Assembly: GCA_016213825.1 (NCBI GenBank)
Contig: JACQZP010000026.1
Location: 248,001-312,000 of the forward strand
Origin: Acetobacterium woodii
GTDB taxonomy: Bacteria; Bacillota; Clostridia; Eubacteriales; Eubacteriaceae
Reading direction: 5' to 3'
Length of the DNA stretch: 64,000 nucleotides
Under the pieces are notes generated by a model that was not told where the DNA came from, made no database searches, and worked only from the letters and a program-made list of their open reading frames with translations. The position numbers were made by a program, and so were the translations under genes. This document shows, one piece after another, positions 3,145-39,053 of the stretch (position 1 is its first letter; each line of letters opens with the position of its first letter).

Positions 3145-5007
3145 TTAGTACTTATCCATCTCCATATCATCTAGGTCGATCCGGGGAGCGGTCGGGGTGG
3201 AATCTTCCGGCACTACCGATCTTTTTGTTACTTGTTGTGGTGGCATGACGCGATGGGCTGATCCTTTTCTTTTTATCTTGAAAGCGCTAACCATCTGCTT
3301 GAGCATTTCGGCCTGGCCGGACAGTTCTTCGCTGGCACCAGCACTTTCCTCGGCTGTGGCCGAGTTGGTCTGAACTACCGTCGAAACCTGTTCAATGCCC
3401 TGGGTGATCTGGGCGATTTCAGTGGCCTGATCGTTGGAGGCACGGGCGATGTTGCCAACCAAACTGGTTACTTTTTCAATTTCGTTGAGAATCTCAACTA
3501 AACTGGATGCCGTTTCATCGGCAATTTTGGTGCCAGTCTCAACCTTGTCAATCGAGCCTTCGATGAGACCGGTGGTTTCTTTGGCGGCTTCGGCACTACG
3601 GGCAGCCAGAGAACGGACTTCTTCGGCTACAACGGCAAAGCCTTTGCCGTGTTGGCCAGCCCGGGCAGCTTCGACAGCGGCGTTAAGCGCCAGTATATTG
3701 GTCTGGAAGGCAATATCGTCAATGACCTTAATGATTTTTGAAATACTATTAGAGGATTCGTTAATGTCAATCATGGCCGCGACCATCTTGGTCATCTGTT
3801 CATTACCAACCTCGGCGTTGCTGCGAACTTCTAAAGCCCGTTCATTGGCTTCATTGGCATGGGAGGCGTTTCGTTTGGTTTCACCAGCCACCTCTTCAAT
3901 CGAAGCATTCAGTTGTTGAATGGCACTGGCCTGTTCGGTAGTACCTTGAGATAAAGCCTGTCCACCATCGGAAATCTGCCGTGCTCCGGCTTCAACCTGA
4001 CTGGCAGCTTCACTGATTTCATTCATGGTTTCACTGAGGGTGGCGGTAATTCCATTAAGCGCTGTTTTTATCGCTTGGAAATCGCCCAGATACTCGGCCG
4101 TGATTTCCAGATCAAGGTTGCCATTACCCATTTCTTCCAAGGTATTAGTAATTTCACTCACATATTGTTTTAGTGCTGAAATGGTTTGGTTCATATCATT
4201 TTTAATTAAAATATAATCACCATTGTAATTACCAACCATGCCAGTATTGAGATTCCCTTGAGCCAATTCTTTAAGCGTTTCGGATGCTTCTGTCAATGGT
4301 TCGATCACAGCATCCAGGGTGCTATTGATACCCTCTACAATTTTAGCGAAATCTCCCTCGTGTCTCTGGACATTAGCCCGAGTATCCAAACGGCCTTCTA
4401 ATGCCGCCTGCGACAGCATGTTTGCATCCTCAACCAGAGCATTGATCGATTCAACACATTTGTTCACCGAGTCACCGAGGATCTGGAAGGTACTATGGAC
4501 ATCCTGAGTATCTTCATCTTCCGCGGCAAGCACAATATTTACCGCCATATTTCCAACGGAAAGCTTGGTAAGACCATCGACCAACTTTTCAGTCTCATTT
4601 TGTTGGTAAGCAGCGATTTTATCATGCGTCGCTCCGCTTGTTTGATGGCGGTGAGATCGGTGATGATTTCCAGTGCACCAATCGTTTTTCCAGAACGATC
4701 GGTGATGGGAACACCTGTATATGAAATATCCAGATCCGAACCAACTGGGTGGGCATCTGTTTCACTGGTTGCAGCACAACCAGAACTCATCGCTTTTGAA
4801 CAGGCACAATTTTCAGTACGACAATCTGAGGTATCAAAAAGGTTATAACAATTTTTGCCAATTGCTTCAGTTTTGTCAAGCCCAGCGATCTGAGCACCCA
4901 ATTCGTTCAAATAGTGAATCACATAATCATTATCAATGATCAAAACCGGACTGGGCAATAACATCGATGAATCCAACCAAAGCGTCAAGTGTATCGTTCA
5001 CACCTTC
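3145..5007 (-). pseudogene. Decayed methyl-accepting chemotaxis protein (N-terminus lost, two frameshifts)
   Basis: Reading inward from base 5007 the frame gives EGVNDTLDALVGFIDV. One extra base near 4957-4958 then moves the frame to PSPVLIIDNDY and a PAS domain (to about 4630), and one missing base near 4623-4628 returns the original frame (IAAYQQNETEKLVDGLTKL). The HAMP-like repeats and methyl-accepting signalling domain then read intact to the stop (open frame 3145-4584). The signalling part is nearly identical to the MCP at 5240-8413, including the hairpin-tip region and the DDMEMDKY tail. A stop codon directly precedes EGVN, so sensor and membrane segments are missing. The open C-terminal module could still be translated from an internal start, but no convincing ribosome site was found. 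Confidence 0.8.
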
Positions 5008-5189
5008 TTAGAATAAATGGTATAAAATAGCCCGAACTAAAGAAAAATTTTACTGTCTGTTCACATTTTATAAATAAAAAATTATATGTAGTTAAATTAT
5101 AAAAATGATAAAGACTATTAATTTTTAATCAAAATGAAATAATCGTTTTGTTTAAAAAAGACCAAGCGGGGTGATCTTATAAATATATT

Positions 5190-34955: not shown

Positions 34956-35309
34956 CTAGAAAGTGGCTGAAATCAGGAATCCTCCGTAAAAAGCGAGAAA
35001 GCTCAATACCAGCGTGACCAGTACATAAACAATAGCGCTGAGGATCCGGTTATTTTGTAACAGCACAAAATCTTCAAACATAAAGGTTGAAAAGGTTGTA
35101 TAGGCTCCTAGAAAGCCTTCGGCAAATAAACCATAAAGAAGCGTTGAGATATCAAAACCGGTTACCACCCCTAAAAGAAAGGCACCAGAAACATTGATGA
35201 TAAAGGTACCAATAGGGATGTGCTGATGCCGGGAAGCAAAACGCTTACCCAGATAGTAACGGGTGGTGCTACCCAAAGCTCCACCAAGGATGACACATAA
35301 AGTTTCCAT
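34956..35309 (-). CDS. crcB: Fluoride channel subunit, CrcB/FluC family
   Basis: 117 residues, four hydrophobic helices. Family motifs GGALGSTTRYYL, GTFIINVSGAFLLG and GAYTTFSTF are present. Fluc channels are dual-topology dimers; Firmicutes often encode two different subunits side by side, as here. Starts 11 bases after the stop of the other crcB, in one transcript under a fluoride riboswitch. Exports fluoride across the membrane. Confidence 0.93.
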   Translation of the reverse strand: METLCVILGGALGSTTRYYLGKRFASRHQHIPIGTFIINVSGAFLLGVVTGFDISTLLYGLFAEGFLGAYTTFSTFMFEDFVLLQNNRILSAIVYVLVTLVLSFLAFYGGFLISATF

Positions 35310-35320
35310 CGGGAAAATCC

Positions 35321-35758
35321 TTAATTATAATCAAAACTGAAACGAGAGACCAGAGTTTTACCAAAGGGATGTAACAGATGATGGCCGATCAGATGACCCA
35401 TGTAAACAGCCCCTAAACCAAGAAGAATAGAAGCCACAACATAGTAACAGAAGACTCGCAGATAACCGGAATCCAGAATATCAATACTTTCTTTGCAGAA
35501 GGTTGAGTAGGTGGTAAAGGCACCCACCAGTCCGGTGGTCAGACCCAGTTTCAGCTCATCACTGATTCGATCAGTTTTCGAGAACACTGCGTTTAACATC
35601 CCCAGAATTAGGCATCCGACAAGGTTGATTAAAAGGATGGTCAAAGCCAGATTCAACAATTGATCCCCGGATTGAAAAAGTGACGGTGAAGTTTTAAGTT
35701 CGAACCGCAACAGAGCTCCAATAGCCCCGCCAACGGCGATAAAATAGTATTTTTTCAT
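35321..35758 (-). CDS. crcB: Fluoride channel subunit, CrcB/FluC family (first of pair)
   Basis: 145 residues with RBS AGGAGG. N-terminus VGGAIGALLRFEL, then NLVGCLILGMLNA and GLVGAFTTYSTFCKES mark the CrcB fold. It carries a longer C-terminal tail than its partner, with HLIGHHLLHPFG. First gene downstream of the minus-strand fluoride riboswitch. Together with the following crcB it should form a fluoride-specific heterodimeric channel. Confidence 0.93.
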   Translation of the reverse strand: MKKYYFIAVGGAIGALLRFELKTSPSLFQSGDQLLNLALTILLINLVGCLILGMLNAVFSKTDRISDELKLGLTTGLVGAFTTYSTFCKESIDILDSGYLRVFCYYVVASILLGLGAVYMGHLIGHHLLHPFGKTLVSRFSFDYN

Positions 35759-35838: not shown

Positions 35839-35913
35839 AAAAAACCCGCAGCATTGAAAAATCCTGCAGGAGTCATCAGCTGTAAAGCAATTCAGGTGAA
35901 CTCCATCACCTTT
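35839..35913 (-). ncRNA. Fluoride riboswitch (crcB motif) controlling the crcB pair
   Basis: Minus strand reads GGTGATGGAGTTCACC, then GCT...AGCTGATGACTCCTGC, the crcB/fluoride aptamer. GGAGT can pair with ACTCC to form the pseudoknot. The 3' strand continues into a terminator (CCTGCAG with CTGCGGG, then six T) that shares CTCCTGC with the aptamer. Fluoride binding would therefore prevent termination (ON switch). It lies about 80 bases before the first crcB gene. Confidence 0.93.
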
Positions 35914-35921
35914 ATAAAATA

Positions 35922-36053: not shown

Positions 36054-36082
36054 TTGATATTTTCTACTGGATCGATTAAACT
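36054..36082 (+). promoter_or_regulatory. Sigma-A promoter for the dynamin-like gene
   Basis: TTGATA (36054-36059), 17-base spacer, TAAACT (36077-36082), ending about 8 bases before the second aptamer. Confidence 0.65.
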
Positions 36083-36089
36083 AATACAA

Positions 36090-36179
36090 AAGGTGATGAA
36101 GTTCGCCCTGGCGCTGGCCAAAATGCTGATAAGCTGATGACTTCTGCAAAATACCATGCAGAGGCAACAGCTTTTTTTT
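36090..36179 (+). ncRNA. Second fluoride riboswitch, upstream of a dynamin-like GTPase gene
   Basis: Plus strand reads GGTGATGAAGTTCGCC (36092-36107), then AGCTGATGACTTCTGC (36132-36147). Compared with the crcB copy, the pseudoknot pair changed from GGAGT/ACTCC to GAAGT/ACTTC, a compensating change that keeps pairing. A terminator follows: AAGCTG with CAGCTT plus TCTGCA with TGCAGA, then eight T. Its 5' arm is the aptamer's own 3' strand, so ligand binding should favour read-through. The next gene starts about 30 bases after the T run. Confidence 0.85.
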
Positions 36180-36209
36180 GCGTGATATATTATAAATGAG
36201 GAAGTGTAT

Positions 36210-37898
36210 ATGAATAAAGACAGAATGATGATGACTTTAAATGATGTTGTAGAATTGCTGATATTTACTGACGTTTGTAACGACGATATAATAAAAATCC
36301 GCAATCTTCAAACGAAAATACAAAATAAAGAACTGGTGATCTCGGTCATCGGTCAGTTTAAACGGGGGAAAACCTCCTTTATTAATGCGGTGTTGGGGGC
36401 AGAAGTACTGCCGGTGGGAATTATCCCAGTGACCTCAGTGGCCACCAAAATTCAGTTTGGGGAAGCGCGGGCGGTGGTGCATTATCAAAATGACGAAGAA
36501 ACCAGTGTTTCATTGGACGAATTGGAGGGGTTTATCAGCGAGCAGGCTAACCCTAACAATAACAAAGGGGTCGCTTTTGTTAATCTCTATCTGCCCTATG
36601 ATTTTCTCAAAGATGGTGTTACCCTGGTGGATACTCCAGGTGTCGGTTCCATTCATCAGAATAATACCGATGAAGCTTATGCTTTTATGAAAGACAGCGT
36701 CGCCATTATTTTTATGTTGTCGGTGGATAGTCCCATCAATGAAATTGAGCGGGAATTTCTGTCAACCGCTAAAAACTATGCGTCGAAGTTCTATTTTACG
36801 GTGAATAAAATCGATACCATTAGCAGCGCTGATCTGGAGGCGTATCTGGGCTACTGTCACCAAATTATCGGGTCGATTATGGATGAAGAGAAGATCGAGC
36901 TGTTTCCCATCAGCGCGAAAACAAAATCGGGAATGGCGGAACTATTCGCTCAAATTGAAGGAGATATCGAGGTCTCGGTGGACAGTATTATTATGGACTC
37001 GATGCAAATTAAGTTCGGGGAAGTTCTGAGTACGACGCTGTCGCATCTAGAGCTGTACCGCAGTGCCACCAGCATGCCGCTGGAAAATCTGGAAGAAAAA
37101 CGGTTAGAACTGGTGGATCGCTTGGGACGGCTGGATCAGATCACCAAAGAAGCCAGCTTTTATCTGCTTCAGAATATTGATGATTTACTGGAACAGATTC
37201 GTACTACCCTTTCTAATGGTTCTGAAGAATTAAAGCAGAAGCTGAAAGCGGTGCTGGAGACGGTCTACCAGGAGAACAGCCATATAAAGTCCAAACAGTT
37301 GGAAAAGCAATTGACGGCGATTATGGAAAATGATCTCAATCAGCATCTCAGTGAGTTGAGTGATCTGGGATTGATCACCCTTTCAAGCGGTTATGAAAGG
37401 CTGGCAGAGGTGCTAAATAAAAAGATTAATGACCTCAAAGATTTTCTCAAAACCCTGGTATTTGAGCTGTTTGGCATCAGCTATCACTATGAAAATACGG
37501 TTCATACGCTGTCCATCCGGGATGATTTTTACGTCCGGGTGAATCAGAAACCCTCCGCATTTCTGGTAGATATGAATGACCTGGTCTATCTAATGCCCCG
37601 AAGCGTGGCCAATAAAAAAATCATCAACCGTTATTTTAGTAAAATGGAAAATGATGTGGATTGCAATATCAACAACATGATCTACAATTACCAGTATAAA
37701 ATCAGAGAGAGTGTGCGGTCTTTTAAATCGGTTCTACAGAATGAATCGGATACTTTAAAAACAGATCTTGAAGAGTTGGTTAACCGGGTTATTGCCGATA
37801 AGGAAGATACCAGTCAGGAGCTGGGCGAAAAAATTGCCGAACTGGATGATGTTTGCCAGCGATTAACCTTGGTACTGGGGGAGCTTTGGAATAAATAA
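36210..37898 (+). CDS. Dynamin-family GTPase (bacterial dynamin-like protein)
   Basis: 562 residues. ATG 36210 follows GAGGAAG; GTG 36204 is a less likely start. GTPase motifs: G1 GQFKRGKT (residues ~48-55), G2 Thr in PVTSV, G3 DTPG (~141-144), G4 NKID (~199-202). The remaining ~350 residues are mostly helical and coiled-coil-like (EKRLELVDRLGRLDQ region), as in dynamin stalks. No clear transmembrane span is visible. Bacterial dynamin-like proteins remodel or protect membranes. The gene is the first after a fluoride riboswitch, so its expression should rise with fluoride. No second dynamin-like gene is adjacent. Confidence 0.87.
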   Translation: MNKDRMMMTLNDVVELLIFTDVCNDDIIKIRNLQTKIQNKELVISVIGQFKRGKTSFINAVLGAEVLPVGIIPVTSVATKIQFGEARAVVHYQNDEETSVSLDELEGFISEQANPNNNKGVAFVNLYLPYDFLKDGVTLVDTPGVGSIHQNNTDEAYAFMKDSVAIIFMLSVDSPINEIEREFLSTAKNYASKFYFTVNKIDTISSADLEAYLGYCHQIIGSIMDEEKIELFPISAKTKSGMAELFAQIEGDIEVSVDSIIMDSMQIKFGEVLSTTLSHLELYRSATSMPLENLEEKRLELVDRLGRLDQITKEASFYLLQNIDDLLEQIRTTLSNGSEELKQKLKAVLETVYQENSHIKSKQLEKQLTAIMENDLNQHLSELSDLGLITLSSGYERLAEVLNKKINDLKDFLKTLVFELFGISYHYENTVHTLSIRDDFYVRVNQKPSAFLVDMNDLVYLMPRSVANKKIINRYFSKMENDVDCNINNMIYNYQYKIRESVRSFKSVLQNESDTLKTDLEELVNRVIADKEDTSQELGEKIAELDDVCQRLTLVLGELWNK

Positions 37899-38063: not shown

Positions 38064-39053
38064 ATGTTTATAAATAATCATGACGGATTGGAATTGTCAA
38101 CTGCCATGCTGATTGATGCGGCCGAGCAGCGGGGTATTACAGTTGATATTCTCGATCGGGAAGACAATTTTATCCGGCTAAAAAAAGGCGGCAAGACCGA
38201 ATACATCAAACAGGCAACCCGGACATCCGCCGATAGCTACATTGCGCCCTTAATTATGGAAAACAAAGAAGTTACCAAGCTGATTCTCCGGGAAAAGAGT
38301 ATTAACGTGCCGTCGGGGATTAAGGTCAAATCGGCGGCTGAAGCGATGGTGCACTATCAATCATTTAGGGGCAAAGATATTGTAGTCAAGCCCAAATCTT
38401 CCAATTTTGGTCTGGGCATCGTGATCCATAAAAACCTACAGTGTGAAAACTGCTACCGGACGGCGGTGATCCAGGCATTCACTCATGATACATCGGTATT
38501 GATTGAAGAATTCGTGCCTGGCAAGGAGTATCGGTTTTTAGTTATCGGTGATGAGGTGGTAGGGATTCTCCATCGAGTTTCGGCCAATGTGGTGGGGGAT
38601 GGGGTTCATAGCATTGTTGAACTGGTAACTGAAAAGAACCAGAATCCTCTGCGGGGAAAGGGCTATGTCACACCGCTGGAAAAGATCCAGCTAGGAAAAA
38701 CTGAAATTGCTTTTCTCAGTGAGCAGAATAAATCCATCCAGACCATTCCCGAGGATGGCGAAACCGTCTTTCTCAGGGAAAATTCCAATATCAGCACCGG
38801 CGGGGACAGCATCGATTTTACCGACGATATTATTGATGAATACAAGACCATAGCGGTGGCAGCTGCCCAGGCTGTCGGCGCCAGGATCTGCGGAGCCGAT
38901 ATCATCATCCGGGATATTCAAAAAAAACCGGATAGCCAGAATTACAGCATCATCGAACTGAATTTCAATCCAGCCTTGCATATTCACAATTATCCCTTTG
39001 TCGGCGAAAACCGGCATGTGGATGACAAAGTGTTAGATCTGTTGGGGTTTTAG
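38064..39053 (+). CDS. Stand-alone ATP-grasp ligase like the C-terminal half of GshF (glutathione synthetase/cyanophycin-type)
   Basis: About 329 residues from ATG 38064, chosen because GAGGTGG lies upstream. The start NNHDGLELSTAMLIDAAEQRG matches the beginning of the ATP-grasp part of bifunctional GshF proteins. ATP-grasp features: VVKPKSSNFGLG, VLIEEFVPGKEYRFLV and, at the end, IIELNFNPALHIHNYP (Mg-binding E and N). The gamma-glutamylcysteine ligase half normally fused in front is absent and is not encoded nearby. It probably joins an amino acid or peptide to a carboxylate with ATP; the product is unknown. Possibly in the fluoride-responsive transcript, since no clear terminator separates it from the dynamin-like gene. 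Confidence 0.82.
   Translation: MFINNHDGLELSTAMLIDAAEQRGITVDILDREDNFIRLKKGGKTEYIKQATRTSADSYIAPLIMENKEVTKLILREKSINVPSGIKVKSAAEAMVHYQSFRGKDIVVKPKSSNFGLGIVIHKNLQCENCYRTAVIQAFTHDTSVLIEEFVPGKEYRFLVIGDEVVGILHRVSANVVGDGVHSIVELVTEKNQNPLRGKGYVTPLEKIQLGKTEIAFLSEQNKSIQTIPEDGETVFLRENSNISTGGDSIDFTDDIIDEYKTIAVAAAQAVGARICGADIIIRDIQKKPDSQNYSIIELNFNPALHIHNYPFVGENRHVDDKVLDLLGF

Follow-up and report, generated by a model that had tools for sequence, protein, structure and literature searches.

The genes placed behind fluoride riboswitches form a varied set. Sections of a review (PMC11139923) name crcB, CLC-F, Na+/H+ antiporters, enolase, pyrophosphatase, HAD proteins and formate hydrogenlyase as targets, sections of PMC2864571 list mutS, K+ or Cl- transport and formate hydrogen lyase among the linked genes, and uspA appears in sections of PMC5533749. 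The latter also describe a fluoride operon in Enterobacter cloacae FRM, which consists of ppaC, uspA, eno, gpmA, crcB and orf5249. Fluoride enters the cell as HF, acidifies it and becomes trapped, and in a variety of bacteria fluoride upregulates genes for the structure and integrity of the cell membrane (both from sections of PMC11139923). Fluoride defence, as described in the portions of these sources considered here, comprises export, pH control and the replacement of inhibited enzymes. Among bacterial dynamins, DynA of Bacillus subtilis has been linked to the surveillance of membranes in stressed cells (parts of PMC8844932), and IniA is drug-induced (parts of PMC6715688).

Here we describe a locus of Acetobacterium woodii in which, judging by sequence, a dynamin-like gene is almost certainly controlled by a fluoride riboswitch of the ON type, alongside a divergently oriented crcB pair. 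The window, i.e. the whole stretch of DNA that was analysed, comprises 64,000 nucleotides. It contains both RF01734 matches of the genome, which lie back to back. The features of the locus are as follows.

34956-35309, minus strand: crcB, second gene of the pair (PF02537, E 1.8e-26; TIGR00494 above cut-off)
35321-35758, minus strand: crcB, first gene of the pair, fluoride exporter (PF02537, E 3.7e-23; TIGR00494 above cut-off)
35860-35919, minus strand: fluoride riboswitch aptamer (RF01734) of the crcB pair, in divergent orientation (cmscan, 54.7 bits)
36054-36082, plus strand: promoter-like site TTGATA-17-TAAACT immediately 5' of the dynamin-side aptamer (consensus scan, 9/12 matches)
36083-36153, plus strand: dynamin-side aptamer of the fluoride riboswitch class RF01734 (47.6 bits and E 4.3e-10 by cmscan)
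36092-36095/36104-36107 and 36125-36127/36132-36134, plus strand: helices P1 and P3 (pairs counted on 26 aptamers; fold)
36098-36102/36140-36144, plus strand: aptamer pseudoknot, intact in the window (pair counts on 26 aptamers)
36109-36112/36117-36120, plus strand: extra hairpin of 4 bp inside the dynamin-side aptamer
36131-36179, plus strand: putative intrinsic terminator, the expression platform, overlapping the 3' part of the aptamer (RNA fold; terminal U run)
36198-36204, plus strand: Shine-Dalgarno-like GAGGAAG (sequence reading)
36210-37898, plus strand: dynamin-like GTPase gene, 562 aa (PF00350 Dynamin_N, E 4.9e-30, 105 bits against a cut-off of 27)

A sequence-only reading of this DNA had proposed a fluoride aptamer upstream of a dynamin-family gene, and both assignments held up against reference models: the RF01734 covariance model, a failed match to which would by that reading have refuted the proposal, scores the aptamer well above its gathering score of 34 bits, and the Dynamin_N profile identifies the gene. 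The open reading frame of the latter spans 36204-37898 and its likely start is the ATG at 36210, preceded by GAGGAAG, which places the gene 56 nt behind the end of the aptamer. The promoter-like site adds little weight, because the scanned region has six such sites and shuffled sequence 2.6. Further downstream (38067-39053), a glutathione-synthetase-like protein is encoded whose match to the GshAB model is confined to the C-terminal half of that model; a gene of this kind lies 3' of dynamin in several genomes of the genus and is absent from the stretches examined in G003, G018, G005 and G015.

The pseudoknot reads GGAGT/ACTCC on the crcB side and GAAGT/ACTTC on the dynamin side. This difference had been read as a compensating change, and it proved to be genuine covariation, since the two altered columns hold an AU pair in 17 and a GC pair in the other 9 of 26 aptamers from this and related genomes and are unpaired in none. 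Over the same 26 aptamers, 95.4% of the pseudoknot cells are paired, with two-sided changes in four of its five pairs, and the whole structure of P1, P3 and pseudoknot pairs in 93.8% of cells, with two-sided changes in 8 of 12 pairs. Shifting the 3' partners by one to three columns as a control lowers pairing to 40-60%. The ligand-free leader (36120-36178) folds into a stem at 36131-36173 followed by a U run, with a minimum free energy of -20.7 kcal/mol (z -4.9) that none of 200 shuffles equalled. A simple pattern scanner for terminators did not have the hairpin at 36131-36179 among its calls. Because the terminator stem consumes the 3' strand of P3 and the pseudoknot strand 36140-36144, aptamer and terminator are mutually exclusive. 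The overlapping terminator and ON-switch layout claimed at the outset are thus borne out by the fold, from which the leader is predicted to be a transcriptional fluoride ON switch.

The lower score of the dynamin-side aptamer compared with the crcB aptamer (47.6 against 54.7 bits) might indicate a degenerate relic that has lost switching, and decay does occur in the genus: in G006 (L064), a fragmented dynamin gene at about 4600-5100 lies beside a weakened aptamer of 32.5 bits, as if gene and switch were decaying jointly. However, the paired elements in the window are intact, and the aptamer core is conserved among ten aligned genus sequences, all of which retain the U run. Loss of switching is therefore very improbable here. 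The aptamer had also been called divergent from the crcB one. It does differ, but the word understates the case, because, within the genus, the aptamers on the dynamin side contain an insert of 10-11 nt, which is more than drift, whereas those on the crcB side are without it; in the window, this insert forms the 4-bp hairpin at 36109-36120. An origin of the dynamin aptamer as a copy of the crcB aptamer was considered and rejected: with an insert found on the dynamin side only, recent duplication of the neighbouring aptamer seems an unlikely source.

The protein encoded downstream models as a dynamin of the BDLP/IniA/mitofusin type. Its AlphaFold2 model (mean pLDDT 81.8, pTM 0.66; residues 433-454 under pLDDT 50) shows a GTPase head and long helices that would form neck and trunk. 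The best matches among solved structures are BDLP, IniA, the bacterial dynamin pair 5owv/5oxf, SynDLP and Fzo1/mitofusins; superposition of the model gives Z 21.7 and rmsd 9.2 over 501 residues for IniA (6j72), and Z 19.2 and rmsd 9.9 over 502 residues for BDLP (2j68). The GTPase motifs are intact (G1 GQFKRGKT, G3 DTPG, G4 NKID). No transmembrane-like stretch was found in the 562 residues, and the most hydrophobic stretch falls within the GTPase domain. The protein scores below the cut-offs of two dedicated family models, namely DynA (NF052648, 51 bits against 1600) and the clamp-binding dynamin CrfC (NF007368, 37.3 bits against 1146).

Within the genus, represented by 19 genomes, full-length orthologues with 57-100% identity are present in nine, and in all nine a same-strand RF01734 match above cut-off lies 60-114 nt upstream, measured from the aptamer to where the protein match begins. 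The linkage, the absence of which in all relatives had been named as an argument against the proposal, is therefore a regular feature of the genus. Five of the nine genes stand back to back with crcB (G000, G004, G005, G016 and G017), an arrangement that could suggest mere hitch-hiking, in which dynamin happens to lie beside the crcB locus and the aptamer is irrelevant to it. Yet each of the nine genes has its own same-strand aptamer, and the linkage persists where crcB is elsewhere: in G003 and G018 the dynamin gene and its aptamer lie far from crcB, and the linkage thus cannot be read-through from the crcB locus. In Acetobacterium tundrae (G015; L069/L078), the crcB-side aptamer is kept and dynamin with its own aptamer is intact, and no crcB gene was found in the 12-kb stretch examined. 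As the linkage holds away from crcB, hitch-hiking is refuted as a general account, and we give it next to no probability for this locus; in the phylum sample described below, the aptamer also occurs at 26 of 36 loci against a roughly estimated 0.2% expected by chance for a random gene.

Other genomes of the genus vary in content and order. In G002, dynamin and crcB are separated by a MutS-like pair that has an aptamer of its own, and this locus (L065) carries four fluoride aptamers in about 4 kb, one each for dynamin and the MutS-like pair and two before crcB genes. Ten of the 19 genomes have no full-length dynamin gene; four of these are without any RF01734 match, and six have RF01734 (G001, G006, G008, G009, G010 and G014), with the contig of G009 ending 32 nt past the aptamer.

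A scan of one genome per species returned 101 dynamin relatives, and 80 of these were retained. An upstream same-strand aptamer was recognized in 11 of them by a covariance model (R1) built from 26 aptamers, including those of the window and of other members of the genus. The genus matches to R1 are therefore not independent evidence, and the RF01734 counts are. Six of the 11 are Acetobacterium records already counted for the genus. The remaining five come from Thermobrachium celere, a Caloramator MAG, the dynamin gene of which has a frame break, and three Clostridiales/Bacillota MAGs, and all five aptamers are above the Rfam cut-off. One further locus (L079), by length the same contig as G628 of the phylum sample below, begins at the dynamin gene and offers no upstream sequence to judge. 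The 68 more distant relatives (L087-L154), 64 of which have at least 1 kb of sequence before the protein match, gave no aptamer match above 16 bits; many apparently derive from gut or rumen samples, many are shorter, and the 26 placed in a tree form one clade. A general rule that this dynamin fold means fluoride was accordingly discarded, given these 68 of the 80 loci and G324, a genome with a related dynamin at 656 bits and no RF01734 match.

Of 398 genomes in an evenly drawn sample of the phylum, 37 gave a dynamin match (E <= 1e-50), and RF01734 was searched in the stretches around the dynamin loci. Leaving out the window's own gene, 26 of 36 loci have a same-strand RF01734 match above cut-off within 2.4 kb upstream, and R1 adds five weaker ones (G433, 39.5 bits; G489, 37.1; G425, 29.7; G535, 24.6; G556, 19.5), which brings the count to 31 of 36. 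Two loci have no upstream aptamer (G771 and G648), one has an aptamer on the opposite strand only (G749), and two offer just 4 and 873 nt of upstream sequence to judge by (G628 and G392). The aptamer is less than 250 nt from dynamin in 16 of the 31 loci; in the other 15, further open reading frames or more than 250 nt lie between the two. The sequence-only reading had spoken of a response of this anaerobe, and this scope proved too narrow, because the linkage extends to further families and classes within the sample.

How often dynamin is a riboswitch target can be judged from a class sample of 341 genomes, in which 68 have RF01734 and ten a dynamin gene (seven full-length and three shorter). 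Six of the seven full-length genes are in RF01734 genomes (p 3e-4), the exception being that of G324, or six of ten with the shorter ones included (p 6e-3). A weak profile match in G185 (32 bits) was left uncounted; in G088 the aptamer before dynamin scores 26.8 bits, under the Rfam cut-off, and the locus falls under the E limit of the survey. Since five of 81 aptamer sites lead into a strong dynamin gene (G000, G004, G018, G147 and G196), with less than 1.5 kb of downstream sequence at five of the 81, dynamin is a minor target in that class. Three to four candidates per genome were scored in the class and phylum searches and in that for MutS-B, so that relatives may have been missed.

Two trees cluster the fluoride label, with 4 changes against 14.1 in shuffles in one and 6 against 18.7 in the other. 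Both were built by a quick method, contain several long branches and leave a single origin unsettled. The first covers 37 of the 80 one-genome-per-species loci. In the second, 13 rows were omitted, L284 gave no usable row, and L292, L293, L297, L317 and L318, which have weak or R1-only aptamers, were labelled fluoride. Some arrangements of the aptamers themselves also recur. Back-to-back aptamers in opposite directions, as in the window, are found by R1 at L299, L306, L310, L313 and L314, some of them weak, and tandem aptamers occur 28 nt apart before a Na+/H+ exchanger (L185, 9818-9879 and 9908-9969) and 44 nt apart in G370:C42 (372-434 and 479-540).

The genes that share these loci suggest what dynamin may be part of. 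Gene orders include crcB-crcB-DUF190-dynamin (L201), aptamer-dynamin-enolase (L186), aptamer-Na+/H+ antiporter-universal stress protein (Usp)-dynamin (L294) and, in one run, aptamer-mutSA-mutSB-dynamin (L062, L080, L084 and L085); at L298, dynamin lies near a H+-pyrophosphatase. Co-transcription of dynamin with these neighbours is assumed from gene order and strand. DUF6062 proteins are encoded between aptamer and dynamin at L290, L291, L317 and L318. The label CLC for one neighbour profile (20 of 43 open reading frames) was dropped, because by Pfam both proteins checked (L206 and L309) are Na+/H+ exchangers. A NifU-like and/or a GGGtGRT protein (PF14057) stands behind fluoride aptamers in several genomes (L083, 3481-5243; L084, 715-2615; L085, 713-2614; L183, 10332-11195; L257; L306, 7454-8893) and represents a putative further fluoride-linked gene pair.

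The proximity to enolase and H+-pyrophosphatase raises the question whether the GTPase is itself a fluoride target that is overproduced in compensation. Metal fluorides inhibit GTPases, and GDP-metal-fluoride complexes mimic the transition state. Enolase and pyrophosphatase are both named as fluoride-inhibited in sections of PMC11139923. Dynamin would be produced in larger amounts, just as these two enzymes are. Enolase, however, is a housekeeping enzyme, while dynamin is patchy. In the family of G196, exactly the three of six genomes with RF01734 have a dynamin gene and none of the three without it does (p 0.1), and the ten genus genomes without a full-length gene include all four that are without RF01734, although some genomes are incomplete. 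The gene is patchy and tends to accompany the switch, which makes compensation weaker than a membrane function, and we regard it as unlikely; dynamin looks like a dedicated rather than a vulnerable housekeeping protein.

The company of mutS bears on a different possibility, namely that the GTPase acts with the MutS-like pair in the repair of nucleic acid or protein and not on membranes. The mutS of several fluoride regulons is a two-gene pair of MutS_V proteins of about 500 aa each (L080, 2853-5869; L062, 5032-8129; L065, 6160-9269; L084; L085; L183; L184; L294; L299; L306). The MutS-B protein of L080 scores best to the model of the lysine 5,6-aminomutase reactivase KamC, and the DNA-repair reading of the name mutS may therefore be wrong. 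A partnership would fit the four loci in which mutSA, mutSB and dynamin form one run behind an aptamer, as well as the weak CrfC match of dynamin (37 bits) and the KamC match of MutS-B (74.5 bits). Both matches nevertheless stay under their cut-offs (1146 bits for CrfC, 300 for KamC), and the source genome, G004 and G018 have dynamin and no MutS-B match at E 1e-40. A repair partnership is thus quite improbable, somewhat more so than compensation.

With these alternatives weighed, we consider it reasonably probable, taking regulation and function jointly, that the gene belongs to the fluoride regulon as a dedicated component and that its protein acts on the membrane under fluoride stress. For the function by itself, action on the membrane under fluoride or HF stress in the manner of a bacterial dynamin, we see an even chance; a membrane task is the likeliest one because of the protein fold and the role of DynA in membrane surveillance. 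In the absence of fluoride, the nascent leader would form the terminator, and transcription would halt before the dynamin gene. Fluoride together with Mg2+ would stabilize the pseudoknotted aptamer and block the terminator, RNA polymerase would pass into the dynamin gene as into crcB, and the GTPase would be made together with the CrcB exporters. Acid, fluoride or the loss of divalent cations could damage the membrane or make it leaky, and GTP-driven self-assembly of dynamin might then fuse, seal or remodel it. Fluoride binding, induction, co-transcription across intervening genes, membrane action and a benefit to the cell are what we infer for this chain.

For the Bacillota as a whole, we tentatively suggest, at slightly less than even probability, an old and dedicated family of fluoride-stress dynamins, i.e. 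membrane-remodelling GTPases that are chiefly regulated by fluoride riboswitches. Together with CrcB, the Na+/H+ antiporter, Usp, enolase and the MutS-like pair, they would belong to a wider defence in which membrane integrity forms a separate, previously undescribed arm. A dynamin under a fluoride switch implies that fluoride may target membranes and that a specific protein may be devoted to them; for bacterial dynamins, it would provide a defined chemical inducer that can readily be assayed. The finding also bears on Acetobacterium as PFAS defluorinators, as, according to sections of the review PMC11139923, defluorination failed in strains that had no working fluoride exporter.

The sequence-only reading knew of no dynamin-like target of fluoride riboswitches. 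This agrees with open-licence PMC text, in which no link between the two was found, old supplementary gene lists being outside the scope of the search. The co-mentions of crcB and dynamin in this text look unrelated, judged by title, and the main texts of PMC11139923, PMC13273304 and PMC2864571 do not contain the word dynamin.

Compared with bacterial dynamins described so far, the window protein resembles BDLP (2j68) and IniA in its modelled fold, at 12-16% identity to these structures, and falls short of the model of B. subtilis DynA by the margin given above. Relative to BDLP, mycobacterial IniA and DynA, predicted fluoride control is a distinguishing feature. The E. cloacae FRM operon likewise places several kinds of genes behind one riboswitch, and its enolase, Usp and crcB recur beside dynamin in the loci described here; none of its six genes is called dynamin in the sections of PMC5533749 that describe it. 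The switch itself shares with known riboswitches of the RF01734 transcriptional ON type the score, P1, P3, the covarying pseudoknot and the overlapping terminator, and differs in that its target is a dynamin-like GTPase. Thus, a familiar class of riboswitch is paired at this locus with a target of a kind that is widespread and apparently unreported.
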